From positions 1 to 40,220 of the IMG/VR virus record IMGVR_UViG_3300044699_000042: a stretch of DNA of 40,220 nucleotides, one strand, 5' to 3'. Position 1 is the stretch's first letter. The number at the start of each line of letters is the position of its first letter. The notes below the pieces were generated by a model. That model had not been told where the DNA came from and did not search any database. It saw nothing but the letters and a program-made list of their open reading frames with translations. The position numbers and the translations under genes were made by a program. This document shows positions 19,955 through 35,585 of this stretch, piece after piece. Source of the DNA: a virus.

Positions 19955-21890
19955 ATGCCTCGTAATGTATCCGGCACCTACAGCCTTCCGCTGCCGCCCG
20001 TCGTCCCCAACACCGTCATCCAGTCGGCTTGGGCGAACACGACGACCGACGACATCGCGCAGGGCATCACCGACTCGCTAGACCGCAACGGCCGGGGCGG
20101 CATGATCGCCCCGTTCCGGCTGGTCGACGGCTCGGTCCTGCAGCCCGCCTTCGCCTTCTCGTCGGAGACTGGCACGGGGCTGTACCGTGAGTCTCCAGGC
20201 GTCATGGCTTGTCGGTCATGGGGGTGAAGATCGCCTCGTGGTCCGGCAGCGGCTACGACCTCCTGGCGACCTCGGGGTGACCGGCAACGTCGCCGTCACC
20301 GGCAACCTGTCCTTCCTGGGCAACCTCGTCCTGACGGGCGACATCGCCCTCGACGGCAACCTGGGGCTGACCGGCGGCATCTCGGTCACGGGCGGCATCT
20401 CCTCGACCGACGACATCAGCGTGGTCGAGAACTTCGACGGCATCGCCGGCTTCTTCTCGACCAACCTGTCGACCGGGGCCAACGCAGTCTCGGGCTTCAA
20501 GGGCACCAACGACGCCAACCGCAGCATCGCCATGCTGTCGACGGGCACGGGCTACACCGCCCTCCTGCCCGGCGAGCTTGACAGCACCGGGCTGATCTTC
20601 GCCGACGCCGCTCGCGGGATGGCGTTCGTCGCAACCGGCGCGGCAGGCGGCCAGAGGTGGTACACGGGCGCGTCGCCGGTCCAGCGGATGATGATGGATC
20701 AGGCCGGTCTGGTCGCCATCGGCAACAACTTCTTTCCGTCGACCCCAGGCACCACGCTCGATGTCAAGGGCACGATCCGGGGCATCGGTGGCGCGAGCGC
20801 CAGCGGCGCGGGCCAGGGGCTGCGGCTGCTGAACCTTGCCGGCACGCACGGCGCGTCCCTGACCGTCGGCGAGGTGTCGACCGACCTGACCCTGTCCAAC
20901 GACACCGGGCCGGTCATCATCAACAACACCGGGGCCAACCGGGCGTGGTTCGACATCAACGGCCGGTTCGGCGTCGGCGTAACCCCGAGCTACGGCATCC
21001 ACCTCACGGGCTCGACGACCAACGCCGTCATCGCCGTCACCGACCCGGCGGGCGTGACGACGTTCATGCAGGCCAACGCCAACGCCGACGGCCGCGTCGG
21101 CTCGCTGTCGAACCACCCGATGTACTTCGTCGCCAACGGGGCGGTGAAGGGCGAGTGGAACCCTGCCGGCAACTTCGGCTTCGGGATGACCGGCCCGGTC
21201 TTCCGGGTCGACGTGTCGAGCCCGGCCGGCGGCTACCCCGGCATCCACGTCGACGTGTCAGGCGCGCCCAACCAGGGCATGCTCCAGCTTGGCAACAATA
21301 TGTTCCTGCAGGGCGGGGGCGACTACACCGGGCTCCGGTTCAACCAGGGCGGCGCCGAGCTTGGGCACCTGTCGACCTCGGGCAACCTGGGGCTTGGTGT
21401 CTCCAACGCAGGCATCCGGCTGCACCTCAAGGCTGCCGGCGCAGGCGCTCGCTGCCGGGTCGAGTCGAGCGACGGCAGCGGCGTCATCGCCGACTGGCTC
21501 GCCGACGGCAGCGACTCGGCCCAGCTTGGCACGACGTCGGCGCACCCGATCAAGCTCTTCACCGCCTTCGCCATCAGGCAAATCTGGGGCGCTGGCACCA
21601 ACGCCGCCATCAAGCACGTCTACAACGCCACCGAGTACGTTGCCAGCAACGACCCTGGAGCGGTCGCTGCCGACATCCCCATCGGGTCCATCGTCTTCGG
21701 GCAGGCGGTGATCGTCGGGGGCAGCCCCGCCCTCACCGGCCTTGGGACCTTCACTTGCGGCGTCAGCGGCCAGCAAATCTCGTGGGGAGGCTTCACGGGC
21801 GGCAGCACCACCACCATCACCCACGGGACGTGGCGCAACATCGGCGCGCAGACCGCAGGCGGCGTCGGCCTTTTCCAACGAGTCGCCTAA
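19955..21890 (+). CDS. Tail fibre / receptor-binding protein (frameshifted near the N-terminus)
   Basis: The N-terminus MPRNVSGTYSLPLPPVVPNT, then QSAWANTTTDDIAQ, is the classic virion-attachment start of podovirus tail fibres. After residue ~85 the frame breaks (near 20207 and again near 20276); corrected, it reads GVKIASWSGSGYDLLATSG and runs into a long beta-repeat region (VTGNVAVTGNLSFLGNLVLT, IALDGNLGLTGGISVTGG) typical of trimeric shafts. The C-terminal ~150 residues (GSIVFGQAVIVGGSP..GTFTCGVSGQQISWGG..GTWRNIG) look like a globular tip. About 645 aa. No chaperone or depolymerase motif was seen. Confidence 0.85.
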
Positions 21891-21905
21891 CCCCTGGAGC
21901 TACAA

Positions 21906-22097
21906 ATGGCAGACATCTTCCGCAAGACCCTGAAGCGCCGCGAGGCAGCAGCCGACGCCGACGTCGGCACCCAGGTGGCGGCCGCCCCCGCGCCGGCACC
22001 CAAGCCCGCCGTCGACTTCTTCAAGCCCCAGCCGACCGATCCGGCGGCCGAGGCTGCCAAGCAGAAGAAGCTCGTCGAGATGCTCCGCAACCGGTAA
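21906..22097 (+). CDS. Small hypothetical protein (63 aa)
   Basis: The last gene of the late unit, after the ribosome leader CTGGAGCTACAA, which also precedes many early genes on the other strand. Basic N-terminus (IFRKTLKRREAAAD), an Ala/Pro linker (AAAPAPAPKPAVDFFKPQP) and a helical end. Function unknown; it may be a minor structural or assembly peptide. Confidence 0.65.
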   Translation: MADIFRKTLKRREAAADADVGTQVAAAPAPAPKPAVDFFKPQPTDPAAEAAKQKKLVEMLRNR

Positions 22098-22113
22098 CCC
22101 GGCATTTAAATCA

Positions 22114-22131
22114 AGTTACCCGTAACGAAAA
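22114..22131 (+). repeat. 18-bp dyad motif, copy 7
   Basis: AGTTACCCGTAACGAAAA lies 16 bp after the last late gene and directly joins the hairpin at 22133. On the - strand it forms the T-rich tail of that terminator. Confidence 0.7.
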
Positions 22132-22150
22132 AGGCCGCCCGAAGGCGGCC
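22126..22150 (-). terminator. Terminator at the convergence of early and late units
   Basis: A stem of GGCCGCC (22133-22139) and GGCGGCC (22144-22150) with a 4-base loop. Read on the - strand it is followed by TTTTTCG, giving a good rho-independent terminator for the PEP-CTERM genes. On the + strand there is no T-run after the stem, so it would stop late transcripts less well. Confidence 0.8.
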
Positions 22151-22172
22151 TGGGGTTGGTAGCCTGAGGCGC

Positions 22173-22772
22173 TTACCGTGCGTTCTCGGCCCGCTGGCGA
22201 CGCCGGGCAATGCCGGTGACGACAGCCAGACCGGCCAGCATCAGCGCATACGTCTCGGGCTCGGGGATCGCGGCGACCTGAAGGTTGCCGGCATAGGACG
22301 CCGACTGCCCAGGCACCAGACCGGACACCAAGCCGCTGACCTCGATGGCGTAGGTGCCGGCGGTCAGCGTCAGGAAGTCCAGGGCCGAGACGAACGCGGG
22401 AGCCGTAGTGCCCTCGGCGATCAGCGAGCCCAGCGTCAGGGCAGAGCAAGCCGCCCCGGTCCCGCCGCACGCCGAGGACTCGACGTTGAACAGCTTGGCG
22501 CTGAATTCGCTGACGTTCTGGATCGGCAGGAACACCGCATCGAGCGTGGCCGCTCCCTCCGGCGCGAGGCTGAAGACCCAGAAGTTGTCGAACGCCCCGT
22601 TGGTGCCGGTCGTGCTGTTGGTGAACGTGCTGTTGTCGAACGTCGTCGAGTCGTGCAGCCCCAGGTTGGTCGCAGGTGGCCCCTGGTAGGTGCAGCCGTC
22701 GCAGATCGTGACGGCCGCAGCCGGAAGAGCCAGGGCAGCGAGTGCCAGGGCCGCGAGGAATTTCTTCAGCAT
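22173..22772 (-). CDS. PEP-CTERM sorting-domain protein 1 (exosortase substrate)
   Basis: 199 aa. Residues 1-20 are a signal peptide (KKFLAALALAALALPAAA). The mature part starts with VTICDGCTYQGPP, has Asn/Thr/Ser-rich beta sequence and GAFDNFWVFSL, which resembles the FxDxF subgroup of PEP-CTERM proteins. The C-terminus is a full PEP-CTERM signal: PEP at residues 170-172 (PEPETYALMLAG), a hydrophobic helix and an Arg cluster (ARRRQR). In known systems the host exosortase cuts near PEP and the protein is placed at the surface or in exopolysaccharide. No exosortase is encoded here. Strong ribosome site (AAAGGAG). It is last in the early unit and followed by a terminator. Very unusual cargo for a phage. 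Confidence 0.9.
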   Translation of the reverse strand: MLKKFLAALALAALALPAAAVTICDGCTYQGPPATNLGLHDSTTFDNSTFTNSTTGTNGAFDNFWVFSLAPEGAATLDAVFLPIQNVSEFSAKLFNVESSACGGTGAACSALTLGSLIAEGTTAPAFVSALDFLTLTAGTYAIEVSGLVSGLVPGQSASYAGNLQVAAIPEPETYALMLAGLAVVTGIARRRQRAENAR

Positions 22773-22803
22773 GAGCGATTCTCCTTTGAGGTGATGGGAC
22801 GTT

Positions 22804-23451
22804 TTAACGCGGGAGCTTGCGACGCCGGGCGACGCCGCCGACCACTGCCAGACCGGCCAGCATCAGGGCATACGTCTCGGGCTCGGGGACCGGGGTGACG
22901 TCGAACGGCGTCGAGCCCGGCGTCAACTGGCCGTTGAACCAGCCGCTGCCGCCGTCGGCCAAGCCCTGGGCGTGCGTGGCGAACAGGAACCCGTTCTTGC
23001 CCTCGGGGCCGTTGACGCTGATGCTGTTGAACGACGCCAGCGTCGCGCCGGCAAAGTCCCAGGACAGGACGTCGACGCCGTCGAAGCGCGGCGGGTTGCT
23101 CGACAGGTCGATCTTCCAGTCGAAGTACCCGTCGCCGTCGGCCTTGAAGGCGTTGCTGGAGAAGCTGTAGCCCTCGTAGGCCGAGGCTCCAGTGCCGCCG
23201 ACGTTGCTGATGGCGAGCGGGCCGCCAGCGTAGTTGCCGTACAGGCTGGTGATGAATTCACCGGGGGCCATCGTGCCCTGGAGGTCGAAGTGGACCCCCG
23301 TGGCGGTCTGGGTGACCTCCAAGATCGAGCAGCCGGTGAGGGCGTTGGCGCAGTTGGTGCCCCCACTGAATTCGTTCTCGAATCCGATGGTGACGGCCCC
23401 GGCGCTGGCAGCGGCTGCTGCTAGCACGAGGGCGAGGATGGACTTCTTCAT
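22804..23451 (-). CDS. PEP-CTERM sorting-domain protein 2 (exosortase substrate)
   Basis: 215 aa. Signal peptide MKKSILALVLAAAAASAGAV; mature part beginning TIGFENEFSGGTNCANA with one Cys pair and a beta-rich body (SISVNGPEGKNGFLFATHA). C-terminal PEP at residues 189-191 (PVPEPETYALMLAG), a helix, then ARRRKLPR. The sorting tail is almost identical to that of the neighbouring gene, but the mature parts differ, so the pair is not a simple recent duplication of the whole gene. TAGGAG lies 11 bp before ATG. The gene is separated from the upstream gene by a 70-bp gap that holds a hairpin. The export and sorting role is firm; the biological effect is unknown. Confidence 0.9.
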   Translation of the reverse strand: MKKSILALVLAAAAASAGAVTIGFENEFSGGTNCANALTGCSILEVTQTATGVHFDLQGTMAPGEFITSLYGNYAGGPLAISNVGGTGASAYEGYSFSSNAFKADGDGYFDWKIDLSSNPPRFDGVDVLSWDFAGATLASFNSISVNGPEGKNGFLFATHAQGLADGGSGWFNGQLTPGSTPFDVTPVPEPETYALMLAGLAVVGGVARRRKLPR

Positions 23452-23471
23452 GGTGCGGTGACTCCTAGAAC

Positions 23472-23498
23472 GCCCAGGCTTAGGAGAGGTGCCTGGGC
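23472..23498 (-). other. Hairpin in the leader of PEP-CTERM gene 2
   Basis: GCCCAGGC (23472-23479) pairs with GCCTGGGC (23491-23498) over an 11-base loop, 20 bp upstream of the start on the transcript. There is no T-run. It could be an attenuator or RNA-processing stem that separates the PEP-CTERM genes from the rest of the early transcript. The palindrome CCCTGCAGGG (23503-23512) is next to it. Confidence 0.45.
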
Positions 23499-23521
23499 AA
23501 ACCCCTGCAGGGACTTAGATG

Positions 23522-23755
23522 TTACTGGACCGGCGGCGGCTGCGGCGCACTGGCTGCCGGCAAATCGCTGCCGGTGATGTGGGACGACGGCGGCGGCGGG
23601 TTCTGCCGGGCTTGGTTCTCCTGGGCGATCTCGTTCGCCATCCGGGTCAGGAGGTTGTAGCTGCGCTCTGCAGGGAGCTTGCCCAGCCCCTGCAGGACGA
23701 TCTCGGTTTCCTCGACGGTGAAGATGAAGTTGTACGGGTCGCGAATGCCGGCCAT
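23522..23755 (-). CDS. Hypothetical phage protein (77 aa)
   Basis: Starts three bases after the stop of the HTH gene behind GGGAG. N-terminal FIFTVEETEIVLQGLGKLPAE and SYNLLTRMANEIAQEN form a compact helical unit seen in small phage proteins of unknown role; the C-terminus is Pro/Gln-rich. Confidence 0.65.
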   Translation of the reverse strand: MAGIRDPYNFIFTVEETEIVLQGLGKLPAERSYNLLTRMANEIAQENQARQNPPPPSSHITGSDLPAASAPQPPPVQ

Positions 23756-23758
23756 GCC

Positions 23759-24079
23759 TCAGGCTCCCTTGAAGACGTCAGGCCGGAAGAGCGACGGCTT
23801 GACATTGAAGAACGTCGCCAGTTGCGCGGCGCGCACGGCGGGCAGGGGGTAGTTGCGGTCGCCCTTGCAGAGCCGCTCCCACTTGTACAGGGACTGCGGC
23901 CGCACGCCCAGGAAGCGGGCGAGGTCGGACTTGTTGCGCTCCTCGCCGAGCTTCTCGCGCATCAGCCAGAGGAACGGGTGCGAGGTCGAGGTCTTGCCGC
24001 CGGGCATCTCGCGGGGGAGCTTGATGATGGCAAGGCGGCTGCTCTCGGGCCGGTTGGCCGGGGCTTTCGGTTTTCTCAC
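23759..24079 (-). CDS. Helix-turn-helix DNA-binding protein (Cro/YdaS-like)
   Basis: 106 aa. The central region KSDLARFLGVRPQSLYKWE is a typical helix-turn-helix of the Cro/CI superfamily, flanked by FLWLMREKLGEE before and AVRAAQLATFFNVKPSLF after. The N-terminus is basic and Pro-rich. ATGA overlap with the SNF2 gene. It is the clearest transcription regulator in the window and thus a candidate to bind the dispersed 18-bp dyad, though nothing in the sequence proves this. Confidence 0.75.
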   Translation of the reverse strand: MRKPKAPANRPESSRLAIIKLPREMPGGKTSTSHPFLWLMREKLGEERNKSDLARFLGVRPQSLYKWERLCKGDRNYPLPAVRAAQLATFFNVKPSLFRPDVFKGA

Positions 24080-25479
24080 TTGGACCCTTTCAGGCGGTTG
24101 AGGATGGCAGACTGGAGGTCGGACTTGGCGACCAGGGCATCGGCGATGCTCTCGTCCACCGTGTCCTTCGCGGCGAGGTAGTGTATCACCACAGGCTTGG
24201 TTTGACCCTGGCGGTACACACGGGCGTTGGTCTGGATGTGTTCTTCAAGGTTCCACGTCAGGCCGAACCAGCAGACGGCGTGGCCGCCAGCCTGGAGGTT
24301 CAGGCCGTGCGCGACCGACGTCGGGTGGACCAGCAGCACCGGGAGCTTGCCGTCGTTCCAGTCAGCCATGATGTCGTTGGCTGCCGTCTTGCTGACGCCG
24401 CCGCCGAGGTAGGGGATGTTGGTGCCCTTGGGCAGGACCGACTCCAGCTTGACGCGGATCGCGTCGACCTCGTGCAGGAAGGCGACCGCCACCAGCAGCG
24501 GCGTGCCCTGCTGCTCCTCGACGAGGTCGGCCAGGGCGTCGAGCTTGGCGTCGTGGACGTGGACCGAGCCCGACTCGTTGTACGCCCAGCCGTTGGTGAT
24601 CTGGCGCAGCTTCATCGTCGCGGCGGCGGCGGTCACGGCAGTGAGCTTCTGGTCGCCGACCTGGGCGACGAGGTCGTCGGCCAGCGCCTTGTAGACCGAG
24701 CGCACAGCCTTGGGAAGCTCGACCGGGATCACGTTGTACGAGATGTCCGGCATCGTCAGGTAGTCCTCGGCCTGGAGCCTGAGGGAGACGTCGGCGATGG
24801 CGTTGGCGATCATCTGGGCAGCGCCAGGGCGGACATGCCACTCGTCGATGGTCCGGCCGCCGCCGATGCGCAGGGGCGTGGCGAACATGAAGAGGCGGCG
24901 GAAGTGGGTGATGAAGCGGCCCAGGCGCTTGCCGTCGTCGACGATCTGCATCTGCGCGAACAGGTCCTCGATGCCCTGGGGCGCAGGCGTGCCGGTCAGG
25001 ATCGTGCGGCGGTCGAACAGGGGCAGGATCGTCTTCAGCGCCTTGAAGCGCACCGACTGGGCGTTCTTGAAGCGGGTCGACTCGTCGACCACGAGCAGGC
25101 CGGGCTTGGTGCCGAAGAGCCCCAGGCTGCCCTGCAGCAGGGCCACCAGCCACGCCACGTTCTCCGGGTTGATCAGGTAGACGTCGGCCTTCGCCTCGAC
25201 CGCTGCCAGCCGCTGGGCGGCCGTGCCGTGGATCGTCGACACCTTGAGGTGCTTGAACTGGTCCCACTTCTTGACCTCGGCGGGCCACGTCAGGTGCATC
25301 GGCCGCAGGGGCACGATGACCAGGGTCGCCTGGATCGCGCCGTGGTGCTGCAGCACGCAGTGACCGGCCAGGGTGATGGCCGTCTTGCCCATGCCGGGGT
25401 CGAGGAGCAGGGCCGAGCCCGGCTGCTGGCAGACCAGGGAGATGGCGCGCTGCTGGAAGGGGAGGGGTTCGTACTGCAT
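24076..25479 (-). CDS. SNF2/DEAD-like superfamily II helicase
   Basis: 467 aa, intact. Motif I LDPGMGKT (residues 26-33), Ia VIVPLRPMHLTWPAE, II VVDEST (about residue 130), III LTGTPAPQG, and a C-terminal lobe with motif V-like HPTSVAHGLNLQAGGHAVCWF and VI-like QTNARVYRQGQTKPV. This is the short SNF2-type helicase/translocase common in replication modules of podoviruses. It is preceded by a sigma70-like promoter that overlaps the VRR-NUC gene, and overlaps the HTH gene at its end. Confidence 0.9.
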   Translation of the reverse strand: MQYEPLPFQQRAISLVCQQPGSALLLDPGMGKTAITLAGHCVLQHHGAIQATLVIVPLRPMHLTWPAEVKKWDQFKHLKVSTIHGTAAQRLAAVEAKADVYLINPENVAWLVALLQGSLGLFGTKPGLLVVDESTRFKNAQSVRFKALKTILPLFDRRTILTGTPAPQGIEDLFAQMQIVDDGKRLGRFITHFRRLFMFATPLRIGGGRTIDEWHVRPGAAQMIANAIADVSLRLQAEDYLTMPDISYNVIPVELPKAVRSVYKALADDLVAQVGDQKLTAVTAAAATMKLRQITNGWAYNESGSVHVHDAKLDALADLVEEQQGTPLLVAVAFLHEVDAIRVKLESVLPKGTNIPYLGGGVSKTAANDIMADWNDGKLPVLLVHPTSVAHGLNLQAGGHAVCWFGLTWNLEEHIQTNARVYRQGQTKPVVIHYLAAKDTVDESIADALVAKSDLQSAILNRLKGSK

Positions 25480-25503
25480 GGCTCGCTTTCAACTACTGAG
25501 CCT

Positions 25504-25791
25504 TCAGTCTACAGCAGCCTGGAGCTTCATGTCAAGCGCCTTCTTGAACTGGGGCATCGACCGGATCATGTCGACCTTGTGGCCGAGGTGCAGGTACTCC
25601 TCGTGGACGATCTTCTGCCGGGGCGACGCCCTGCCGTCCTTCGACTTGAATTCGACCAGCCAGCACCGCTCTGCCGGCAGGAAGAACACCCGGTCGGGCT
25701 CGCCGACGATGCCGCCCTGGAGCTTGGCCGAGCGGACCCCGCGCTTCTTGGCGTGCAGGCGCGCAGACCGCTCCAGGCTCGACTCGCTCAC
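25504..25791 (-). CDS. VRR-NUC domain nuclease
   Basis: 95 aa. The GTG start overlaps the primase stop (GTGA). The VRR-NUC fold is shown by SLERSARLHAKKRGVRSAKL, then GEPDRVFFLPAERCWLVEFK with the catalytic D, E and K pattern (PD..., EFK), and HEEYLHLGHKVDMI. Family members are PD-(D/E)XK nucleases acting on structured DNA such as branched intermediates. It is placed between primase and SNF2 helicase, as in many phages. Confidence 0.85.
   Translation of the reverse strand: MSESSLERSARLHAKKRGVRSAKLQGGIVGEPDRVFFLPAERCWLVEFKSKDGRASPRQKIVHEEYLHLGHKVDMIRSMPQFKKALDMKLQAAVD
25506..25535 (-). promoter_or_regulatory. Sigma70-like promoter upstream of the SNF2 gene
   Basis: On the - strand: TTGACA (25535-25530), 18 bp, TAGACT (25511-25506) preceded by TG. 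It lies in the last codons of the VRR-NUC gene and 27 bp before the helicase start. Confidence 0.6.
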
Positions 25792-28070
25792 GCCTTGCTC
25801 GGGCGCAGGAGCTTGCCTACGAGCTTCGAGTCGGCGCTGCTCAACCACAGCACCCAGCCGTCCCAGTGCCCGCCGCGCTTGTCCAGTTGCTGCTGCTTGC
25901 CCAGCACGGCGCGGAGTCCTGTGGCGACCTTGTTGGCGGTCGCCGCATCGAGCCGGAGCCCAGGCACCAACTGGATGACGTCGGACGCCCGCAGGCTGCA
26001 CTCGATGCAGTTGATCTCGGTGCGCTCCTTGTGCTTGTCAGCGAAGGCACTCGCTGCGTCGGCGATGGGATCGGCGGCTTGGTGCCGCTGGTTGTTGGCA
26101 GCCTGGAGCTTCTCCTCCTCGGCGGTCAGGTGGTACTGCTCCTTGGCCGCCCAGTAGGTGTGCATCTGCGCCCAGAACTGCTGCATGTCGGTCGCGTGGA
26201 ATTCGTCGCACTGCTCGACCCAGACCACGAGGTAGCGGCGGCTGCCGGTGTCGTCCTTCAGGAATTTGTCGTCGTTGACGCTGGCGCAGAAGGAGGTGCA
26301 GCGCGGCCGCCTTCCCCAGGCTTCAGCGTAGGGCAGCCGGTACTCGTCGGTGTGCTTGGACAGGAACGCCTTCAGGCTGCCGTTGGCGCTCTTGCTGAAC
26401 GTGGTGTCAAGCTCGCCAAGCTCGACGATCCAGCCCTGCAGCGCCTCGTGGATGCTGTCGCGTGCGGCCGAGGCGCTGGCGTCGAGGTTCAGGTGCTTGC
26501 CGCCGACGAAGTAGTCGGGTGCCAGCGACTCCAGCCAGCGGCTCTTGCGTCGGCCCTGCGGCCCCGCCAGGACGAAGCAGAGCGGCTTCTCCTGGCGCAG
26601 CCGCTTGGCTCCCCAGCCGCAGGCGGCCTCGACGGTTTGTAATGCCCAGCGACGAAAATACGTCTTGAACAGGTCGGGGGTCGGAGTCTCGACCGAGCCC
26701 AGGAGGTGCTGCAGCCGGTCCTGACCGTCCCAGGGAACCGACTCGATCCATGCCCTGACGGGGTGGTAGGGGCTCGACTCCGCGATCCGGGTCAGGTTGT
26801 CGTCGATCTCCTTCTTGGCGAGCCCCAGGCTGTTGATGGCGTCGCGCAGCGCGCCGTGGATCATCCGGTCGGCGATGTGGGGCAGCATGCTGCTGAAGCC
26901 TGCCGGGTCGATGCGGTCGGGCAGCCCGTAGGTGGTGATGCCGTTCATCAGGTTCAGCCTGGGCTGCACGCCCAGGTAGTTCAGGCAGGACAGGACGTTG
27001 GCGTTGCTGGTGTCCTGCTTGGCGGCGGGCTTGCCCTCGCCGGTCTTCCTGACCCGGTGCAGCGCCTTGAGCGGAAGGTCGCCGAGCCCCTCGGCCAGGG
27101 AGATGGCGTTGTAGGTGGCTCCAGGCTCCAGGGCGACCGGCTGGCCGGGCTTGGGCGGCGGCTCGAAGGGCTCGGTGCGGATCGCGGCGAACATCTCGGT
27201 AAGCTCGGGCCGCATGCCGCCGGGCTTGGGGCCACCCTGGTCGGTGACCCACTCGAAGAACCGCTTGCGGTAGGCACCGCCGTCGTCGCCGTGCCCGTGG
27301 AAGCACATCACGCCGGGGATGGCGGCCGGGCGGTACTTCGCCTCGGTGCGCTCGTCGGAATGCTCCTCGGGCCAGGGGCAGGCGATCTCCCACCAGCCCT
27401 CGCTCATCTCGTGGCGGACCATGCCGCGCTCGCCCAGCCACTTGAAGATCGGGTCTTCGAGGTCGACCGGGCCGCTGGTGCCGGTGTCCTTCTTCTCGAT
27501 CTTGGCAAACTTGAGGTTGAACGCCTTGGCTAGGCCGTTGAGGGTGAAGGTCCGCTTGCCCTCGATGGTGATCAGGTCGGCCTCGAAGCGTTCGTTGCCG
27601 GGCTTCTCGTTCACGCTGCCGGGTATGCGGAACAACCGGCAGGCGCGGTTGACGCCCTTGTCCTGATAGCCGTTGTCGACCAGCGCCTGCATCAGGCCGT
27701 CGGCCTTCTCGATGTCCGTATCCCAGGTCTTCAGCAGGTAGCCCCACTGGTAGTTGCCGGGGCTCGTCTCCAGCCGCCACGTTGGCTCGACCGTGATGCG
27801 GTCGGGGTCGACCTTGGTGCCGACGTCGTCGAGGATGATGGCGCGCACCGCCACCATGTTCTCCCGCGTGCGCTGCCACTTGCTGCTGCTCGCGCCGGTC
27901 GAGAAGTACCAGCGGCCGGCGAGGTGCTGCTCGTGCCACTCCTGGGCTGGCAGACCCTTGGCGCTGGGCTTGGCGACGAGGAAGTGCGTGCCCTCGGGCA
28001 GCCCCTCCTTCATCAAGGCCAGGAACTGCTGCTGCTCCGAAAGTCCTGTGCTAGCATTCGGCTGCTTCAT
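25788..28070 (-). CDS. VapE-like primase-helicase
   Basis: 760 aa, intact. The N-terminal part has a primase-like region (VAVRAIILDDVGTKVDPDRI, NRACRLFRIPGSVN) and a Cys/His region (ACPWPEE..VMCFHGHGDD). The C-terminal half is of the virulence-associated E/P4-type helicase family: VPWDGQDRLQHLLGS, Walker A AGPQGRRKSRW, WIVELGELD (Walker B), FLSKHTDEYRLPYAEAWGRR and DTGSRRYLVV. Walker A carries RRKS in place of the usual GxGKS/T. It primes and unwinds DNA for the polymerase downstream in the early unit. Ribosome site GGGAG before ATG. Confidence 0.85.
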   Translation of the reverse strand: MKQPNASTGLSEQQQFLALMKEGLPEGTHFLVAKPSAKGLPAQEWHEQHLAGRWYFSTGASSSKWQRTRENMVAVRAIILDDVGTKVDPDRITVEPTWRLETSPGNYQWGYLLKTWDTDIEKADGLMQALVDNGYQDKGVNRACRLFRIPGSVNEKPGNERFEADLITIEGKRTFTLNGLAKAFNLKFAKIEKKDTGTSGPVDLEDPIFKWLGERGMVRHEMSEGWWEIACPWPEEHSDERTEAKYRPAAIPGVMCFHGHGDDGGAYRKRFFEWVTDQGGPKPGGMRPELTEMFAAIRTEPFEPPPKPGQPVALEPGATYNAISLAEGLGDLPLKALHRVRKTGEGKPAAKQDTSNANVLSCLNYLGVQPRLNLMNGITTYGLPDRIDPAGFSSMLPHIADRMIHGALRDAINSLGLAKKEIDDNLTRIAESSPYHPVRAWIESVPWDGQDRLQHLLGSVETPTPDLFKTYFRRWALQTVEAACGWGAKRLRQEKPLCFVLAGPQGRRKSRWLESLAPDYFVGGKHLNLDASASAARDSIHEALQGWIVELGELDTTFSKSANGSLKAFLSKHTDEYRLPYAEAWGRRPRCTSFCASVNDDKFLKDDTGSRRYLVVWVEQCDEFHATDMQQFWAQMHTYWAAKEQYHLTAEEEKLQAANNQRHQAADPIADAASAFADKHKERTEINCIECSLRASDVIQLVPGLRLDAATANKVATGLRAVLGKQQQLDKRGGHWDGWVLWLSSADSKLVGKLLRPSKA

Positions 28071-28110
28071 GCGGAGGCTCCCTTAGACTGTGGTGGTTGA
28101 TGGGGGAAAG

Positions 28111-28144
28111 AGCCCCAGGGTTAACGCCCTGGGGCTTTTTCTTT
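28111..28144 (+). terminator. Strong hairpin terminator between primase and polymerase genes
   Basis: AGCCCCAGGG (28111-28120) pairs with CCCTGGGGCT (28127-28136) over a 6-base loop, followed on the + strand by TTTTTCTTT. The flanking genes read on the - strand, where the tail after the stem is CTTTCCCC and weaker. It therefore stops antisense (+) transcripts best, or works as a bidirectional or partial terminator. Confidence 0.75.
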
Positions 28145-28148
28145 GGAG

Positions 28149-30218
28149 CTACTTGCCGTACCTGTCAGCCGTCGTCACCGAGCAGTCGAGAGGGAAACCG
28201 GGCAACCATTTTGGCACCCTTTTCATCTCCTTCGACAGCAGCCCTGCCGCCACATCCGCGATCTCTTCGTCGGCTTCGAGGATGATCTCGTCGTGGGTGT
28301 GACCGATCACGTCGATGTGGCCGCGCCACCCTACCAGTGCCGCATTTACACGCTCGACGCAATCACGCAGCAACGCAGCGCAGAGCGCCTGGGTGGTGTT
28401 CTCGGCGAACAGGCCGTGCCAGATGCGCTCGATGCGGAAGCCGGCCGGCAGCGTCTTGGTGAAGACGATCTCCGTCTCCCAGGTGTTGATGGCCTCGCCG
28501 TCGTAGCCTGCATCTCCATCGCCGATGCTGACCAGGGCGAACCGGCCGGGATGGCTCGGGCTCGCCAGCGCGATGTGACCCTTGACCCCGTGGTAGTACA
28601 GGGTGGTGCCGCCAGGGAGGTCGCAGGCGATGCTGACGGTGCCCTCCAGCATCGGGATGATCTGCCGGTAGGTGATGCCGTAGAGGGTGCTGTCGACCCC
28701 CAGGCAGGCGGCGACGAACGCCTTGTACAGCCCGTAGCTGTACTCGGCCGCCCACCGGTTGCCGTTGCGCCATGCCTCGACGATGCTGTCGGCCTCGTGG
28801 TCGCGCAGGCTGATGCCGTAGTTGCGGGCCATCGACTTCAGGGCTCCCTTGGCACCACCGAACTGCAGCGACAACTCGGACACCTTGCCGATCTGCCGCT
28901 GGTGGTCGGTCGCCTCGGCGGCCGCCACGCCGAAGATGTTCTCGGCATTTACACGGTAGACGTCGGTGCCCTTGCGGTACAGGTCGAGCTTCCACTTGCA
29001 GCGGGCCAGCCAGGGCATGCCGCGAGCCTCGACCGCCGCCCAGTCGCCCCAGACCAGCACCTTGCCCTCGGACGCCTTGATGGTGGGGCGCAGCAGGCTC
29101 GCCAGGACGTGCATGACCTTGCCGGCTACCTGATGCCTCAGGACCGCTTCTATCGCCGCCTGGAGGTCGGGCGGTCCCTTCCTGAGGAGGTTGTGGACCT
29201 GCACGCCCCGGCTGCTGTACCGCTTCGTCTGGGCGGCCCCGTAGCAGAGGTACGAGCCCTCGGCGCGGCCGTTGTCGACCGCCCTGGCGGCCATCTTGGC
29301 GTACTTCGAGACGCTGGCCTTGCCGGCGTCGTCGACCACCTCGATCAACTCGATGACCTCGGGGTCGGCGTCCTTCGCCTCTTCACTGTTGAGGAAGTCG
29401 GCGCGGGCGTTCTTGTCGGTCGACACCTTCTCGCCCTTGACGAAGAACCGGGCGAAGGTCTTGGCCCCGAGCTTCTCGTTGAGCCACGTCTTGATGCGGG
29501 CGTGCTGGTTCACCGTGGTGATGCGGCCGCCGGTCATCCAGCCCAGCAGGGCGGATAGCTCGCGCTTCTCCTCGTCGCCATAGCCCTGGGCTGCGATGGC
29601 GAGGTCGACGTCGATGGGCAGCCCCCGGTCGTTGATGACCTCGGTCAGCATGTACTCCGCAAGCTCGACCTCGGTCAGCGGCACGAGCTTGCGGCCGATG
29701 AGGCGCTCGCTGGTGACGTCGCCCATGCAGTAGGAGAGAAGCTCGACGTACTCGCCGGGGTCGTTGGCCCAGACTGCGTTGGCGAGGTTGGGCGGCAGCG
29801 GCTTGCACCACTTCATCATGACGGCGTTGCCGCGCCTCTTCACTGCGAGGTCGGGGGCGAGCGCCAGGAAGTCGAGCGCCGTCTCCAGCTTGCCCGGCAG
29901 GCCACGCGCACGGGCGAGGGCGGCCGTGCAGCGGAACCGGTGGAGGGGCACGTCGATGTCCAGCACCTCGCGCAGGATCAGCCGCTCGAATTGAGCGTTC
30001 CAGGCGTGGACCTCGACGTCGGGGTGTCGCAGGGCACGAGCGAGAGCCGAGGGCATCGGGTTGTCGGCGGCGGCCGCCCAGTATTTGACCGGCGCATCGC
30101 CGAAGGCGTAGGCGGCGCAGAGGACCGAGGTCGAGGGGTGGCGGGCGTAGACATACGCGCCAGCCTCTTGCAGATCGCATTCGCTGCGAGTCTCGAAGTC
30201 GAGATGGAGGGGTTGCAT
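28149..30218 (-). CDS. Family A DNA polymerase (T7/Pol I type)
   Basis: 689 aa, intact. The N-terminal 3'-5' exonuclease has LDFETRS (Exo I, residues ~6-12) and HAWNAQFERLI (Exo II). Polymerase motif A is VWGDWAAVEARGMPWLA. Motif B is RQIGKVSELSLQFGGAKGA, the fingers helix (K, with L/F rather than Tyr near the usual position). Motif C is HTHDEIIL (His642-Asp643-Glu644). It is the replicative polymerase of the phage. Two CGTGTAAATG sites (as catttacacg at 28343 and 28946) lie in it, each coding Arg-Val-Asn. Confidence 0.95.
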   Translation of the reverse strand: MQPLHLDFETRSECDLQEAGAYVYARHPSTSVLCAAYAFGDAPVKYWAAAADNPMPSALARALRHPDVEVHAWNAQFERLILREVLDIDVPLHRFRCTAALARARGLPGKLETALDFLALAPDLAVKRRGNAVMMKWCKPLPPNLANAVWANDPGEYVELLSYCMGDVTSERLIGRKLVPLTEVELAEYMLTEVINDRGLPIDVDLAIAAQGYGDEEKRELSALLGWMTGGRITTVNQHARIKTWLNEKLGAKTFARFFVKGEKVSTDKNARADFLNSEEAKDADPEVIELIEVVDDAGKASVSKYAKMAARAVDNGRAEGSYLCYGAAQTKRYSSRGVQVHNLLRKGPPDLQAAIEAVLRHQVAGKVMHVLASLLRPTIKASEGKVLVWGDWAAVEARGMPWLARCKWKLDLYRKGTDVYRVNAENIFGVAAAEATDHQRQIGKVSELSLQFGGAKGALKSMARNYGISLRDHEADSIVEAWRNGNRWAAEYSYGLYKAFVAACLGVDSTLYGITYRQIIPMLEGTVSIACDLPGGTTLYYHGVKGHIALASPSHPGRFALVSIGDGDAGYDGEAINTWETEIVFTKTLPAGFRIERIWHGLFAENTTQALCAALLRDCVERVNAALVGWRGHIDVIGHTHDEIILEADEEIADVAAGLLSKEMKRVPKWLPGFPLDCSVTTADRYGK

Positions 30219-30272
30219 GCCAATTCCAAAATTGAAAAAACCGGCTTACGGTCGGGGTGTAGCCTGGGGCTT

Positions 30273-30290
30273 AATTACCCGTAACGAAAT
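30273..30290 (+). repeat. 18-bp dyad motif, copy 8
   Basis: AATTACCCGTAACGAAAT, a perfect consensus match, 32 bp past the stop of the 30322-30987 gene and joined to the hairpin at 30290-30315. Confidence 0.75.
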
Positions 30291-30315
30291 GGGCCAGGGA
30301 GCGACCCCTGGCCCA
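30290..30315 (-). terminator. Hairpin after the 30322-30987 gene
   Basis: TGGGCCAGGG (30290-30299) pairs with CCCTGGCCCA (30306-30315) over a 6-base loop. On the - strand the stem is followed by TTTCG, the reverse of the dyad motif, exactly as at 22133. The T-run is short, so termination may be partial. Confidence 0.6.
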
Positions 30316-30321
30316 GGTGGC

Positions 30322-30987
30322 TTACGACGCCCGGCGTGCCTTGGCGGGCTGCTTGGCGGCGACCTTCTTGCCGGCGGGCTTCTTGGCCGGAGCGACCGGC
30401 GCGGGCTTCTCGGCGGCGACCGCCGGGAGGTCCTTGTGCCACTTCACGATGGTGAAGACCGGGGTGTAGATGCGACCGTAGGTCTTGTTCTTGTGCTTGT
30501 AGCTGTCGCTGGACAAGCTCACCTCGGCGATCATCTTCTCCGGGTCCCGGTGGTACTGGGCGAGGTACTCCTCGGCCAGGGCGGCGAAGGCGTTCAGGCC
30601 GCCCACCGACGTGGTCGAGTAGACGAGCTTCTCGCCAGCCAGCAGGACCGACATGCCGCGCACCTCACCCCAGGGGCGGCCGTTCTCCGGCACCTTGGCC
30701 GGGCGATCCGGCAGCGGCTGGTCCATGCCCGCGATGACGTCGCCGAGAAGCTCGGACTGCACGCCAGCGAGGTCGGTGTCGGCCCAGCACTGCCAGCCGT
30801 GGACGAAGCCGTTGGGGTTGACGAAGACGTGGTCGTCCTCGGTCACCTCCGTCTCGTCGGAGCCATAGCTCCAGGCTCCGTCCTTGCCCATCTTCAGGAA
30901 GCCGACCCGCGTCGAGGCGGCCCGCTTCATGTTGGTGATGACGGTCGCGGCGAACTTGCTCGCGTCGAATTTGACTACTTCACCCAT
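30322..30987 (-). CDS. Putative DNA-binding replication accessory protein (221 aa)
   Basis: No named family was recognised. It has N-terminal KFDASKFAATVITNMKRAAST, an aromatic-rich core (GAWSYGSDETEV, FVHGWQCWAD, YTPVFTIVKWHKD) and a Lys/Ala/Pro-rich tail (PAKKPAGKKVAAKQPAKA). A globular aromatic core with a basic tail, next to a polymerase and a RecB-like protein, fits a single-strand-binding or annealing protein, but SSB proteins usually end acidic, so this is uncertain. A promoter overlaps the end of the upstream gene. Confidence 0.5.
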   Translation of the reverse strand: MGEVVKFDASKFAATVITNMKRAASTRVGFLKMGKDGAWSYGSDETEVTEDDHVFVNPNGFVHGWQCWADTDLAGVQSELLGDVIAGMDQPLPDRPAKVPENGRPWGEVRGMSVLLAGEKLVYSTTSVGGLNAFAALAEEYLAQYHRDPEKMIAEVSLSSDSYKHKNKTYGRIYTPVFTIVKWHKDLPAVAAEKPAPVAPAKKPAGKKVAAKQPAKARRAS

Positions 30988-31073
30988 GACTATCTCCTGT
31001 GTTTCAAAAGTGCAAGGTTTGCCATCAGCGGTGCCATCGGCTCTGCTTCAGACTTCAAGGCCACGAGAGGAGC

Positions 31074-32115
31074 TCAGGGCTTGCCCTTGCTCTTCACGAG
31101 GTTCGAGCCGGAGGATACAGCAACGATGCATGCTGTCAACTCCTCGGGCATGTTCTTGTGCGCCTTCTCGGCCATCGCAGGCGACATGAGCTTGTCCTGC
31201 CAGATTTTGATGCGGCGGCGGCGGGCGATCTCCAGCACCTTCTCCTCGTCGACCCACTGGCGCGTCGCACGCTTGGGCTTCAACTCGTAGCCGGGGATCG
31301 GGTGACCGCTCGACGCGAGGTCGTGCGCCACCTCGCGCAGCGAGTCGAGCCACTGCTGCATCAGGTCGGCCTTGTCGAGCCAGCCGGCGAGGTTCTGCGG
31401 CCGAAGCTCGCGGACGACGACCGGCAGCGCCTCGACGACGTGGCCCATGAGCTTGGGGCAGACCGGCTTGGCCTTGCAGAACCGGCAGTGGTCGCCGGGC
31501 ACGAGGTCGAAGGAGCCTGCCAGGGCGGCCTTGATGGCAGCCTCGGCCTTGACGCCCCAGGCCAGGACGTGGTCGCTGGTCGTCTCCCAGGACTTGACCG
31601 GTTTGTCCTCGTCGGGCGGCTGCACGATGGTCAGGGTGACGCCCTTGGGCATCGGGAGGTCGAACCGCTTGCGCTTGAGCAGGATCATGTAGGCGTAGGC
31701 CAGCAACTGGTCGTTCTCCTCAGGCTCCACCATGATGCCGGCACCGGTCTTCAGGTCGACCACCTCCAGCCACTCGTCGTCGATGGCGGTCAGGTCGGGC
31801 GTGCCGAAGAGGAGGTCGGAATGCTCGACCCGCTCCTCGATGCGGACGACGCCGCCGCTCTTCTTGTACGCCTTCACCACCTTGGCCGCGTGGTCGAGGT
31901 AGGGCTTCAGGAACGCGAAGTCCTCGGCCGACATCGTCGGCTTGGTGGCGTTCTGCGGCAGCAGGTAGGCAGGCCGCGACGTCGTGCAGCCGGGTGCCCT
32001 CGGTCGCGTAAGGACCCTCGGGCGGCTCGGGCAGTTGGAGCCCCAGGCCGAAGGACCCGGTGCAGGTAAGCCAGCGGGTGGCGCTGGAGGGGGCGAAGGG
32101 GGCGTGTGCGCTCAT
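31074..32115 (-). CDS. DUF2800 (RecB-like PD-(D/E)XK) nuclease, frameshifted
   Basis: The start MSAHAPFAPSSATRWLTCTG is the hallmark of DUF2800 proteins (SS..HRWL.C.GS). After TRLHDVAA one extra base near 31977 shifts the frame, which resumes as YLLPQNATKPTMSAEDFAF. Nuclease motifs follow: GTPDLTAIDDEWLEVVDLKTG (catalytic D...D.K) and QLLAYAYM. The Cys pattern C-R-F-C..PVCPKL (CRFCKAKPVC) is that of an Fe-S or zinc cluster. About 345 aa. Probably a recombination exonuclease working with the adjacent 30322 gene. The C-terminus overlaps a promoter for that gene. Confidence 0.85.
31112..31139 (-). promoter_or_regulatory. Sigma70-like promoter upstream of the 30322 gene
   Basis: On the - strand: TTGACA (31139-31134), 16 bp, TATCCT (31117-31112) preceded by TG. 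It is within the last codons of the DUF2800 gene. The 15-mer GAGCCGGAGGATACA (+ strand) here is also found at the 32749 promoter. Confidence 0.6.
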
Positions 32116-32624
32116 GCGATCCTCAGGGTGGTTGCGTTCTTGGGTTGCCTCGGCCGCGCGCCGAGGTCACGAGGGGGGCGGGCGCTGCTGTCGTCGACCA
32201 CCGAGAGCGGACCAGCACCGCAGCAGCATGACGGCGCACCGACCTCCAACCACTTGCGGGTGGTCCGCGCGACATAGCCGCAGCCGCTGCACTCCAGCTT
32301 CAGCATGCGGGTCCCCTGCGTGGCGAGCCCAAGCACGTTGTGCTGATTCTTCAGCGGCTTCAGCTTGGCGATGGTGCGAAGCTCCAGGGTCTTGGCCTCG
32401 GCGGAAGTGAGCTTCTCGCGCACGCGCACTATCTCGATTTTCTTGCCGGTCGCGGCCGCCTTCTGCAATTCGACATGCCAGGGCCGCACGTTGTAGTTGC
32501 CGGGGTCCTTCTCCGACAGCCGGGCCAGCGCCAGATGGTGGGTGTCCCGGCTTCGACAGCCAGCGCCGACGTACCAGACCTCGCCGCCGACGACGTACTT
32601 GTAGACGTAGTAGTCCATCCGCAT
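32112..32624 (-). CDS. GIY-YIG-like endonuclease with C-terminal zinc ribbon
   Basis: 170 aa. The N-terminus YYVYKYVVGGEVWYVGAGCRS resembles the GIY-YIG core (YVY..., WYVG.G followed by R and H), with SAEAKTLELRTIAKLKPL as the expected Glu-bearing helix. The C-terminal part is a zinc ribbon (MLKLECSGCGYV and PSCCCGAG) closely like that of the SprT-like protein encoded next door. ATG 32624 has GGAG six bases upstream. Overlaps the DUF2800 start by four bases. Could be a free-standing homing-type nuclease or a repair enzyme. Confidence 0.7.
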   Translation of the reverse strand: MRMDYYVYKYVVGGEVWYVGAGCRSRDTHHLALARLSEKDPGNYNVRPWHVELQKAAATGKKIEIVRVREKLTSAEAKTLELRTIAKLKPLKNQHNVLGLATQGTRMLKLECSGCGYVARTTRKWLEVGAPSCCCGAGPLSVVDDSSARPPRDLGARPRQPKNATTLRIA

Positions 32625-32639
32625 TTAAATCTCCAGGGT

Positions 32640-32726
32640 TCAGTTGCAGCTATTGCTCAGGCAGAGGAAGAGGGAGATCGCCAGCCAGATGGCACCGACG
32701 AGAATCCAGCAGAGGATGCGCTTCAC
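32640..32726 (-). CDS. Very small membrane peptide (28 aa, GTG start)
   Basis: GTG at 32726-32724 follows TTTGGAGACTTAT (GGAG seven bases upstream). It encodes a peptide with a basic start and one membrane helix (RILCWILVGAIWLAISLFLC) and ends at TGA 32642-32640, 16 bp before the next gene. It sits downstream of a clear promoter. Possibly a small toxin or lysis/membrane peptide; no family known. Confidence 0.5.
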   Translation of the reverse strand: MKRILCWILVGAIWLAISLFLCLSNSCN

Positions 32727-32748
32727 ATAAGTCTCCAAAGGGAGCCGG

Positions 32749-32778
32749 AGGATACATCTCCGGCTCTCAGGTTGTCAA
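32749..32778 (-). promoter_or_regulatory. Sigma70-like promoter upstream of the small peptide and GIY-YIG genes
   Basis: On the - strand: TTGACA (32778-32773), 18 bp, TATCCT (32754-32749) preceded by TG. It overlaps the end of the SprT-like gene. The palindromes GGTTGTCAACC and GAGCCGGAG..CTCCGGCTC frame it and could be operator-like. Confidence 0.65.
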
Positions 32779-33353
32779 CCGACCTGCACGCCCTCCTCGG
32801 CGTGGCAGATCGGGCAGGACATCTCGCCGACGACGGCGTCGACCATCTTCTGGGTCAGACGCCAGAGCGCGCCGCAGTCGCTGCACTCGCACTTCAGCAT
32901 CCGGGTCGGCTGCTTCTTGCGGCTCGACAAGTCGAGCGTCGAGTGCGGGAACTTGCCGACCTTGGCGATGACGGCCGCAGCGATGGCGCTCGACAGGGCT
33001 TCGGGAAGCTCCATCTGGGTCGGCTTGCCGGTCAGCCCCAGGCTCTTGCCGATGGCGACGAAGGCCGCCTTGTGGCCGCTCTTGCAGTCGTCGATGGCGT
33101 GGGCAAGCTCGTGCGCCAGGATGCTGACGACGCGGGCCGGGTCGGCGATCTTGGGCGAGATGAAAATCTCGTTGATGCCAGCCTTCGACATCTTGCGCGC
33201 CCAGCACTCGCCGATCCGCTTGCGGGCCGATCCGCCGCCGGGCCAGGAGCAGGACACCTTGACCGGCGGGAACGTGATGGATGGGTTCGCCTGGGCGACG
33301 GCGACGACGGCGGCTTCGAGCCACTGCTCGCGGGTGATGGGGGCTTGTGTCAT
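32775..33353 (-). CDS. SprT-like zinc metalloprotease with zinc ribbon
   Basis: 192 aa. The active site is HELAH (residues 81-85, in ILAHELAHAID) with a further His at GH (94), as in SprT/Spartan proteases that digest proteins cross-linked to DNA. The upstream region CSWPGGGSARKRIGECW and NEIFISPKI fit the family. The C-terminus is a zinc ribbon: TRMLKCECSDCGALWRL..MSCPICH. It is placed among early nuclease genes, so a role in clearing host or roadblock proteins from DNA is plausible. Confidence 0.85.
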   Translation of the reverse strand: MTQAPITREQWLEAAVVAVAQANPSITFPPVKVSCSWPGGGSARKRIGECWARKMSKAGINEIFISPKIADPARVVSILAHELAHAIDDCKSGHKAAFVAIGKSLGLTGKPTQMELPEALSSAIAAAVIAKVGKFPHSTLDLSSRKKQPTRMLKCECSDCGALWRLTQKMVDAVVGEMSCPICHAEEGVQVG

Positions 33354-33384
33354 TTCAGGGTCCGGTTGGTGGAGGAGAGCCTCT

Positions 33385-33414
33385 ATTGTAGACCCAGGCT
33401 TTAAATCCTCACAA
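33385..33414 (-). promoter_or_regulatory. Promoter-like site upstream of the SprT-like gene
   Basis: On the - strand: TTGTGA (33414-33409), 18 bp, TACAAT (33390-33385). Immediately upstream is one of three copies of the ACCGTYTGTCKGG element (33417-33434). Confidence 0.5.
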
Positions 33415-33613
33415 CTACCGTCTGTCGGTTTAGCCGACGGACGTCGGCTTCGAGGTTGCGCAGGCCACGGTAGTCGGAAGGGGTCTTGGCGCTGGTGTAG
33501 CAGGCACCGGACGCCAGGACCAGCCGGAGGTGCCCGGCGTTGGTGATGACCTTGTCGACGACGAGCCCCTCGCGCTCCAGCCGCTTGATGATCTGGTTCA
33601 TGTCCTTCTTCAT
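33401..33613 (-). CDS. HicA-like small protein
   Basis: 70 aa. NQIIKRLEREGLVVDKVITNAGHLRL..TPSDYRGLRNLEADVRRL has the dsRBD-like layout of HicA mRNA interferases and of the related small phage proteins (K-L-x-x-x-G, H-x-R, TPSD-R-x-x-x-N). No HicB antitoxin is beside it. The catalytic His (GHLRL) is present. A dyad motif sits directly before the start in place of a clear ribosome site. Confidence 0.6.
   Translation of the reverse strand: MKKDMNQIIKRLEREGLVVDKVITNAGHLRLVLASGACYTSAKTPSDYRGLRNLEADVRRLNRQTVVVRI
33417..33434 (-). promoter_or_regulatory. Early-promoter upstream element, copy 1
   Basis: ACCGTCTGTCGGTTTAGC (+ strand). Matching elements are at 35538 and 39088; each lies about 25-35 bp upstream of a -10-like hexamer for a - strand gene. 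Confidence 0.45.
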
Positions 33614-33615
33614 GG

Positions 33616-33633
33616 AATTCCCCGTAACGTAAT
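33616..33633 (+). repeat. 18-bp dyad motif, copy 9
   Basis: AATTCCCCGTAACGTAAT, three bases before the HicA-like start and 30 bp after the stop of the gene upstream. Confidence 0.65.
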
Positions 33634-33662
33634 GGTGGTCGATGGGAGCCCTGGGCTTGGTG

Positions 33663-33897
33663 TCACTTCTTCTTCCGCGCCTCCTTGCGGGCTTTTTTCA
33701 GCGCCCACATCCTGGCCTTGACCGCGCCCTGGTAGATCGCGGCGATGTCGACCTCCTCGCGCTGCCGCAGACCCTTGCAGCGCAGGACGAGCAGCGGGCC
33801 GTCGAGCGTGGCGATGATCTGGCCGGTAGCCCTTGTCGCGGGTGTAGGCCAGGGTGATCCGGGTGACCGGCTTGCTGGTGTCTGTGAGGCTGCTCAT
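33663..33897 (-). CDS. Small basic protein (about 77 aa, frameshifted)
   Basis: Starts MSSLTDTSKPVTRITLAYTR; a one-base error near 33832 shifts the frame, which continues IIATLDGPLLVLRCKGLRQR and VDIAAIYQGAVKARMWALKK, ending in a Lys/Arg cluster. This looks like a small nucleic-acid-binding phage protein; no family recognised. ATGA overlap with the HNH gene. Confidence 0.55.
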
Positions 33898-34346
33898 GGT
33901 GGTCCTAGAAGGGGCAGGGGTCGAAGAGTCGGGCGCGGGGCACCGGCATGGGTCTGGAAGAGCGAGTCGAAGCTCCAGGCTGCCGGGTCGAGCATCGGCG
34001 GGTAGGTCTGGCGCTGGCGGCCGTTGAGCTTGGCGTGCATGTCGCGGACGTTCTCGGCGTTGGGGATCAGGTCGAAGTGCCAGGGGTTGATGCAGAGCGT
34101 GACGTCGCAGCCGTGCTGCACCGTCTCAAGGATCGGGTGCAGCGTGCGGCCCAGGATGACCTCGGCCATCGCCCGGTGCGCCTTGACCGTCCTGTGGCGG
34201 CCGTCGACGCGCACGTTCAGGTGCCCGTAGCGCAGGGGCTGGTCGGTCTTGCCCTGCCAGAGCCAGCAGACGCAGCCCCGGTAGAGGGTCGAGCCCTCCA
34301 CCGTGTTGGCTACCAGCCGCTCGAAGAGCGTGCGGTAGCGGGCCAT
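33894..34346 (-). CDS. HNH endonuclease
   Basis: 150 aa. The motif order fits phage HNH nucleases: CWLWQGKTDQPLRYGHLNVR, AHRAMAEVILGRTL, then TVQHGCDVTLCINPWHFDLIP (first H, Cys pair, N and H) and NVRDMHAKL. The C-terminal ~25 residues look off-frame (PRPTLRPLPLLGPP), so one indel near the end is possible. Overlaps the upstream gene by one base. Confidence 0.8.
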   Translation of the reverse strand: MARYRTLFERLVANTVEGSTLYRGCVCWLWQGKTDQPLRYGHLNVRVDGRHRTVKAHRAMAEVILGRTLHPILETVQHGCDVTLCINPWHFDLIPNAENVRDMHAKLNGRQRQTYPPMLDPAAWSFDSLFQTHAGAPRPTLRPLPLLGPP

Positions 34347-34677
34347 CAGATCGGCTCGCCGGCCTCGCTCTGCCGCAGCGGCCTCGCGGCCGACTGGCCG
34401 GCCTGGAGGGCTCGCGTCGCTTCCTGCTCTGCCATGAAGGCGTCGAGGGCGACCTGGACGCGCCTTGATGTGGGCGGTCGTGTGGATGTCGGCGTCGCGC
34501 AGCCCCAGGCCCTTCGCCCTTGGCGATGTCGATGGAGCGGCTGACCAGGGTCGAGTAGGCGGCCTGGGCTCGGATCGTCCTGGCGCTCGCCAGGGCAGCC
34601 CTGAGGGCGTGCTGGGCGAGCTTGGCCTGGGCTTCCGCCTTGGCGGCTTCCTTGGCGAGGTTGGCGGGATGGTTCAT
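34346..34677 (-). CDS. Small helical protein (about 110 aa, frameshifted)
   Basis: Start after the repeated leader GGAGCTACAGC. The N-terminal helix is Ala/Lys-rich (NLAKEAAKAEAQAKLAQHAL), then IRAQAAYSTLVSRSIDIAKG. Indels near 34465 and 34510 shift the frame; it resumes QVALDAFMAEQEATRALQAG and ends in TGA overlapping the HNH start. No family recognised. Confidence 0.55.
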
Positions 34678-34767
34678 GCTGTAGCTCCGGGTTGGTGGTG
34701 AAGGTGGGCAGTTCGTCGCATGCCCAGGCCAAGCCACTTGGTTCGCTGATATGGGCGGGTGGCAATC

Positions 34768-35469: not shown

Positions 35470-35519
35470 GGTTGGCTTCCAGGGTTGTGGCGGGGACTGA
35501 CAGACGAGAGTATGAACCT

Positions 35520-35555
35520 GTAGCCTGGGGCTGTGTGACCGTCTGTCGGGTTAGT
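35520..35555 (-). promoter_or_regulatory. Early-promoter region for the DUF6011 gene
   Basis: This holds the 12-mer GTAGCCTGGGGC (35520-35531) and upstream-element copy 2 (ACCGTCTGTCGGGTTAGT, 35538-35555). On the - strand a CATACT hexamer follows at about 35513-35508. There is no good -35. Confidence 0.4.
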
Positions 35556-35567
35556 CGAAGAGAATGG

Positions 35568-35585
35568 AATTCCCAGTGACGTTAA
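35568..35585 (+). repeat. 18-bp dyad motif, copy 10
   Basis: AATTCCCAGTGACGTTAA; with flanks it shares 22 identical bases with the copy at 37485. TTCCCAGT here pairs with ACTGGGAA (35590-35597) to make a hairpin just after the stop of the 35604 gene. Confidence 0.7.

Follow-up and report, generated by a model that had tools for sequence, protein, structure and literature searches.

Phage genes for PEP-CTERM proteins: candidate substrates of a host exosortase

The P1-P2 locus

The sequence analysed here, a virus record of 40,220 bases from IMG/VR, is termed the window. Its plus strand carries genes for terminase, portal, major capsid protein, a tail protein and an amidase-like protein, and its minus strand carries genes for a helicase, a VapE-like protein and a DNA polymerase. 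Two adjacent open reading frames, P1 (upstream) and P2 (downstream), are situated at the end of this early/replication cluster, and a fibre gene adjoins them on the opposite strand. The features of the locus are listed in Table 1.

Table 1. Features at the P1-P2 locus of the window, and copies of the P3 gene in other records.
Record	Feature	Position	Strand	Description
Window	567-aa fibre-like protein	20187-21890	plus	convergent with P2; other edge of the slot; from position and synteny
Window	terminator-like hairpin and T run	22132-22151	minus	directly 3′ of P2
Window	P2	22173-22772	minus	199 aa; complete open reading frame; FxDxF family (NF038126); putative signal peptide, PEP-CTERM tail
Window	P2 PEP-CTERM tail	22191-22268	minus	TIGR02595, 26.4 bits, above cut-off
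Window	P1-P2 gap	22773-22803	minus	31 bases; Shine-Dalgarno-like AAAGGAG 5′ of P2
Window	P1	22804-23451	minus	215 aa; complete open reading frame; putative signal peptide, body, PEP-CTERM tail
Window	P1 PEP-CTERM tail	22816-22890	minus	TIGR02595, 28.1 bits, above cut-off
Window	small gene 5′ of P1	23522-23755	minus	kept in the slot by synteny
Window	106-aa gene	23759-24079	minus	HTH-like by eye; kept in the slot by synteny; no PHROG match
Window	DNA helicase	24076-25479	minus	phrog_62; replication cluster preceding P1
G739 (L282)	P3	3907-4743
G742 (L284)	P3	4632-5462
G748 (L283)	P3	4962-5786
G041 (L171)	P3	3005-3820

P1 and P2 are each preceded by a Shine-Dalgarno-like site. The terminator-like hairpin 3′ of P2 recurs in L003, L011 and L021, but sites of this kind are equally frequent in shuffled sequence of the region. 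The fibre-like protein has neither a PHROG nor a Pfam match.

Elsewhere in the window, the terminase large subunit appears to be split into two open reading frames (1048-1671 and 1641-2636, plus strand). It is a single 500-aa open frame in record G004, and the split reflects either an error in sequencing or a genuine frameshift. Weak, sub-cut-off matches to GIY-YIG nuclease and SprT-like domains are found at positions 32112-32624 and 32775-33353 (minus strand).

A search of 21 records, the window among them, for tyrosine integrases (PF00589) gave a weak match in G016 and none in the remaining 20; this search covers tyrosine integrases only, and the records may be fragments. The phages with P1/P2-type genes may be mostly virulent, judging by their gene content.

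P1 and P2 proteins

An earlier note on this DNA, made from the letters alone, had described two adjacent genes for PEP-CTERM proteins at positions 22173-23451 and proposed a search with the PEP-CTERM models. The search confirms both genes. TIGR02595 matches the 40,220-base record exactly twice, at the P1 tail and the P2 tail, both above the curated cut-off, and has zero matches in 14 control genomes. PF07589 (gathering score 20.7) gives 34.0 for P1 and 27.6 for P2. P2 also belongs to the FxDxF family (NF038126, whole protein, 76 bits against a cut-off of 50). P1 is not a member; its 41.7 bits with NF038126 come from the tail only and are under the 50-bit cut-off. Both proteins end in the tail PEPETYALMLAGLAVV..ARRR.

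The rest of the protein make-up given in the note, signal peptides and a beta-rich mature part, stands less firmly than the tails. The putative signal peptides, MKKSILALVLAAAAASAGA and MLKKFLAALALAALALPAAA, each followed by V, were recognised by reading the sequence alone, and by the same reading signal peptides are present in all full-length relatives. AlphaFold2 models are mostly beta with a helix at either end, but are of low confidence (mean pLDDT 60.5 and 63.0), and so the beta-rich character is weakly supported. A Foldseek search of the PDB at E ≤ 0.001 lists 83 matches for the P2 model and zero for the P1 model. As the models are of low confidence and the query-normalised TM-scores listed are all below 0.4, no conclusion on function is drawn from structure.

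Alignment of the P1 relatives shows two conserved motifs in the body, FKADGDGxFDW and GFLFATHxQG..GGSGWF. Purifying selection on the bodies is moderate, with a pooled pN/pS of about 0.45, a value that is probably raised by high third-position GC.

P1 and P2 in other phage contigs

Relatives of P1 are found in 20 IMG/VR contigs and relatives of P2 in 20 (26 distinct contigs). When the third protein described below (P3) is included, P1, P2 or P3 is present in 44 IMG/VR contigs besides the window, on several phage backbones; this count includes near-identical contigs or fragments of one population, and phage identity was checked for some only. Among 50,697 phage records there is no relative of P1, P2 or P3, and no isolated phage matches. 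A DNA search of isolated phages likewise gave zero matches, and a search of plasmids with the P1 body gave none.

In independent metagenomes the P1-P2 pair occupies the same slot, with the replication genes on one side and the tail fibre on the other. The gene order in the closest contigs is polymerase, primase/helicase, helicase, small HTH-like gene, small gene, P1, P2 and the convergent fibre gene, and in contigs from other metagenomes the same phage genes flank the pair in diverged form. This bears on whether the two genes are a host fragment joined to phage DNA through misassembly, as might be supposed from the abundance of PEP-CTERM genes in bacteria and the finding of none in isolated phages. 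The occurrence of the same genes in the same place in different metagenomes, with diverged phage flanks, argues strongly against this, and the codon bias of P1 and P2 fits that of the neighbouring phage genes. Misassembly, whose probability is now close to nil, is rejected on the conserved synteny in independent contigs; the genes are carried by a phage, as the note had stated.

Three contigs (G011, G012 and G032) display the reversed order, P2 followed by P1, directly 5′ of the DNA polymerase gene. They represent a different phage type, with portal, terminase and capsid proteins (read in G012) that belong to other PHROGs. P1 and P2 adjoin, in either order, in most contigs that hold both, and this adjacency suggests a joint function. 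A sorting-type tail is present on every complete copy of P1 and P2 that was read.

The identities of P1 and of the capsid protein are discordant. Between the window and G003 the capsid is 64% identical and P1 83%, and between the window and G036 the capsid is 91% identical and P1 50%. This suggests gene transfer between phages.

A PEP-CTERM tail is found in 7 of 47 capsid-related records. Where capsid identity is at least 81% and the record at least 35 kb in length, five of seven are positive and two negative: G731 stops at the slot, and G741 shows the slot with no PEP-CTERM gene in it. The genes are thus not essential, since they are missing from some contigs within this capsid group, e.g. 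G741. At a capsid identity of 80% or less, none of the nine records of this set that are at least 35 kb long has a PEP-CTERM tail; G003, G035 and G040, at about 64% capsid identity, do hold P1 or P2.

Several single contigs show variant arrangements. P1 is split into two open reading frames next to an intact P2 in G043 (L177, positions 8300-8971, minus strand). A P1-like protein is followed by an unrelated PEP-CTERM protein in the 116-kb contig G037 (L175, 9384-10829, plus strand). G038 (L176, 8925-10373, minus strand) has two neighbouring putatively exported proteins with PDxG-type tails, one of which has a P1-like body. G016 (L132, 4795-5463, plus strand) encodes a different PEP-CTERM protein of 222 aa that adjoins lysis-like genes; this record also has an integrase-like gene and a tape-measure protein and is temperate-looking.

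A third body in the slot

P3 is a third PEP-CTERM body, unrelated to P1 and P2, and is present in 19 viral contigs. The four copies in Table 1 are 58%-65% identical to one another. In G739, G742 and G748, which are three of the PEP-CTERM-positive capsid-related records, P3 is in the same slot, and in G041 it adjoins P2. The tail is found at 13 of 13 loci, save that one ends at the contig edge with the start of the tail visible. P3 is under the NF038126 cut-off and is not an FxDxF member.

Histories of bodies and tails

The bodies are nearly absent from bacterial genomes sampled. An alignment of the P1 body found a match in one of 300 genomes of the order Burkholderiales (E-value = 2.5e-4), and one of the P2 body in 0 of 300, an empty answer that is weak because it lacks a positive control. 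The NF038126 model, by comparison, is matched in 110 of 300 genomes of the same kind of sample. A genome-wide search with P2 yields distant relatives only (30%-38% identity over the covered body), mostly in Burkholderiales. The P1 alignment gives 3 to 67 matches in each of fifteen host-like genomes, mostly on the tail.

These results bear on a further explanation, that P1 and P2 are host genes carried without benefit, by recent accidental capture or as lysogenic baggage. Membership of P2 in a cellular family would fit this, as would the unrelated PEP-CTERM gene of the temperate-looking G016. The near absence of the bodies from sampled hosts is difficult to reconcile with it, as are a slot and an adjacency that are conserved across diverged phages and a pN/pS below 1, and the explanation is considered improbable.

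The tails present a different picture. In a DNA-level comparison of positions 20001-40000 of the window with 401 genomes (the family around Roseateles toxinivorans), the strongest matches are almost all on the P1 and P2 tails, at up to 86%-88% identity over 72-78 bases. No other DNA in this half of the window is as host-like. No spacer-like match was recognised among the matches listed in this comparison. Separately, many unrelated host genomes give short DNA matches to positions 30343-30421, a stretch that is probably of low complexity.

Codon usage in the tails is also distinctive. At fixed positions, both tails encode tyrosine by TAT and glycine by GGT. In the larger genes of the window TAT makes up 20 of 228 tyrosine codons and GGT 80 of 922 glycine codons. 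Host tails of the P1/P2 type have TAT in 62 of 97 cases against a background of 23%, and GGT in 33 of 97 against 11%. The host DNA matches, together with the TAT and GGT preference in both, are suggestive of shared descent of phage and host tail DNA. They do not prove recent capture of the tails, because the best matches were picked from many and the P1 and P2 tails may have copied each other. The host tails point to Burkholderiales, a wider group than the Zoogloea-type sludge bacteria named in the note.

In L003 (positions 6001-6648) a single gene consists of a P1 body, a P2-type tail and the sequence downstream of P2. This fusion is best explained by recombination through the tails.

Tails also differ within one body family; PETYALM, PSEWALM, PGSLALAG, PTTLMLAG, PASLVLLG and others are found. 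With the VPDSG-CTERM model, the P1-like protein of G038 reaches 21.2 bits, slightly below the cut-off of 22. By analogy with known tail types, the tails may match the hosts of these contigs. The bodies are thus likely to be long-standing phage genes that move between phages, and the tails exchangeable parts that resemble those of possible hosts.

Tails that are host-like and change in type might be expected if the proteins were decoys, i.e. if an excess of tails occupied the host exosortase and starved the host's own surface proteins. A decoy would have no need of conserved bodies, and those of P1 and P2 have many invariant residues across distant phages; this function appears unlikely.

The finding goes beyond the first description, in that many phages share a mobile, conserved cargo whose tails are exchangeable. 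There is about an even chance that the locus is a dedicated phage cargo slot, in which the bodies P1, P2 and P3 are combined with exchangeable tails suited to the sorting enzyme of the host, across bacterial groups. The tail forms PETYA, PSEWA, PGSLA, PASLV and the sub-cut-off VPDSG-like form are cited for this proposal.

Discussion

P1 and P2 are probably phage-encoded substrates of a host exosortase that act at the surface of the infected cell. At the sequence level, each combines a putative export signal with a conserved body and a PEP-CTERM tail. The Sec machinery of the host would export both proteins, and the tail would anchor them in the inner membrane. As in the known system, the host exosortase would then cut off the tail, and a host route would take the bodies to the surface or matrix. 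The need for a host enzyme, which the note had also supposed, follows from nine phage records tested, the window included, having no exosortase genes; a matching exosortase is assumed to be present in the host.

Expression would be early or midway in infection, because P1 and P2 lie next to the replication genes, on the same strand, and outside the structural operon. This position is also relevant to a role as head or tail decorations of the virion, where the tail would merely hold the proteins at the envelope for assembly or matrix adsorption. The proximity of the fibre gene is compatible with such a role, but in two phage types P1 and P2 are on the strand opposite to the structural genes and beside replication genes. 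In addition, an exported, membrane-held protein would be inaccessible to assembly in the cytoplasm. A virion function is therefore very improbable.

As exosortase substrates at the surface, P1 and P2 would alter the infected cell in favour of the phage. The most plausible routes would be receptor masking against competing phages and a change of the exopolysaccharide layer. The first is plausible because exported phage proteins are generally known to mask receptors in other systems. The second is plausible because overexpression of the flocculation protein PepA in Aquincola can lower soluble polymer and raise bound polymer (PMC9850573), yet P1 and P2 are not PepA: with NF033554 they score 26.2 and 23.1 bits, respectively, against a cut-off of 80.

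The central proposal of the earlier note, that the phage uses the exosortase of its host to place its own proteins in the envelope or matrix, is thus partly supported and is the best available explanation. The note knew of no phage system of this kind, and in the open-access literature, a scope outside which most subscription papers and preprints lie, no description of phage-encoded exosortase substrates was found. This supports the novelty of the finding but is not proof of it.

Exosortase sorting is regarded as a cellular process linked with the exopolysaccharide matrix, and for most substrates no role is known. If the proposal is true, it would be the first case described of a virus that uses exosortase sorting. 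Phage substrates would be small and well defined, with a likely phenotype in adsorption, aggregation or release, and the phage genes would offer a route to the surface roles of PEP-CTERM proteins. The type of tail could serve as a host signature, a sequence feature that may connect uncultured phages with their hosts.

With respect to known phages, Stenotrophomonas phage BUCT555 has a capsid protein 66% identical to that of the window and the same convergent layout of late and early genes, and Myxococcus phages Mx8 and Mx9 have capsid proteins of 56%-58% identity; all three are without a relative of P1, P2 or P3. P1 and P2 would resemble the surface proteins of phage superinfection exclusion in acting at the envelope of the infected cell; we know of no such protein that is an exosortase substrate.

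PepA is likewise an exported PEP-CTERM protein of Burkholderiales-type bacteria. In Aquincola its signal peptide is functional, and C-terminal cleavage is still unproven (PMC9850573). The FxDxF family, to which P2 belongs, is common in Burkholderiales, but in their bodies P2 and its phage relatives form a group of their own. P1 and P2 share with the substrates of the PEP-CTERM/exosortase (EpsH) system (PMC1569441) a variable body, the PEP motif, a hydrophobic helix and a basic end, and a putative signal peptide would be a further likeness. They differ from them in being encoded by phages, with no exosortase in the nine records tested, and in having bodies that are phage families and not host genes.
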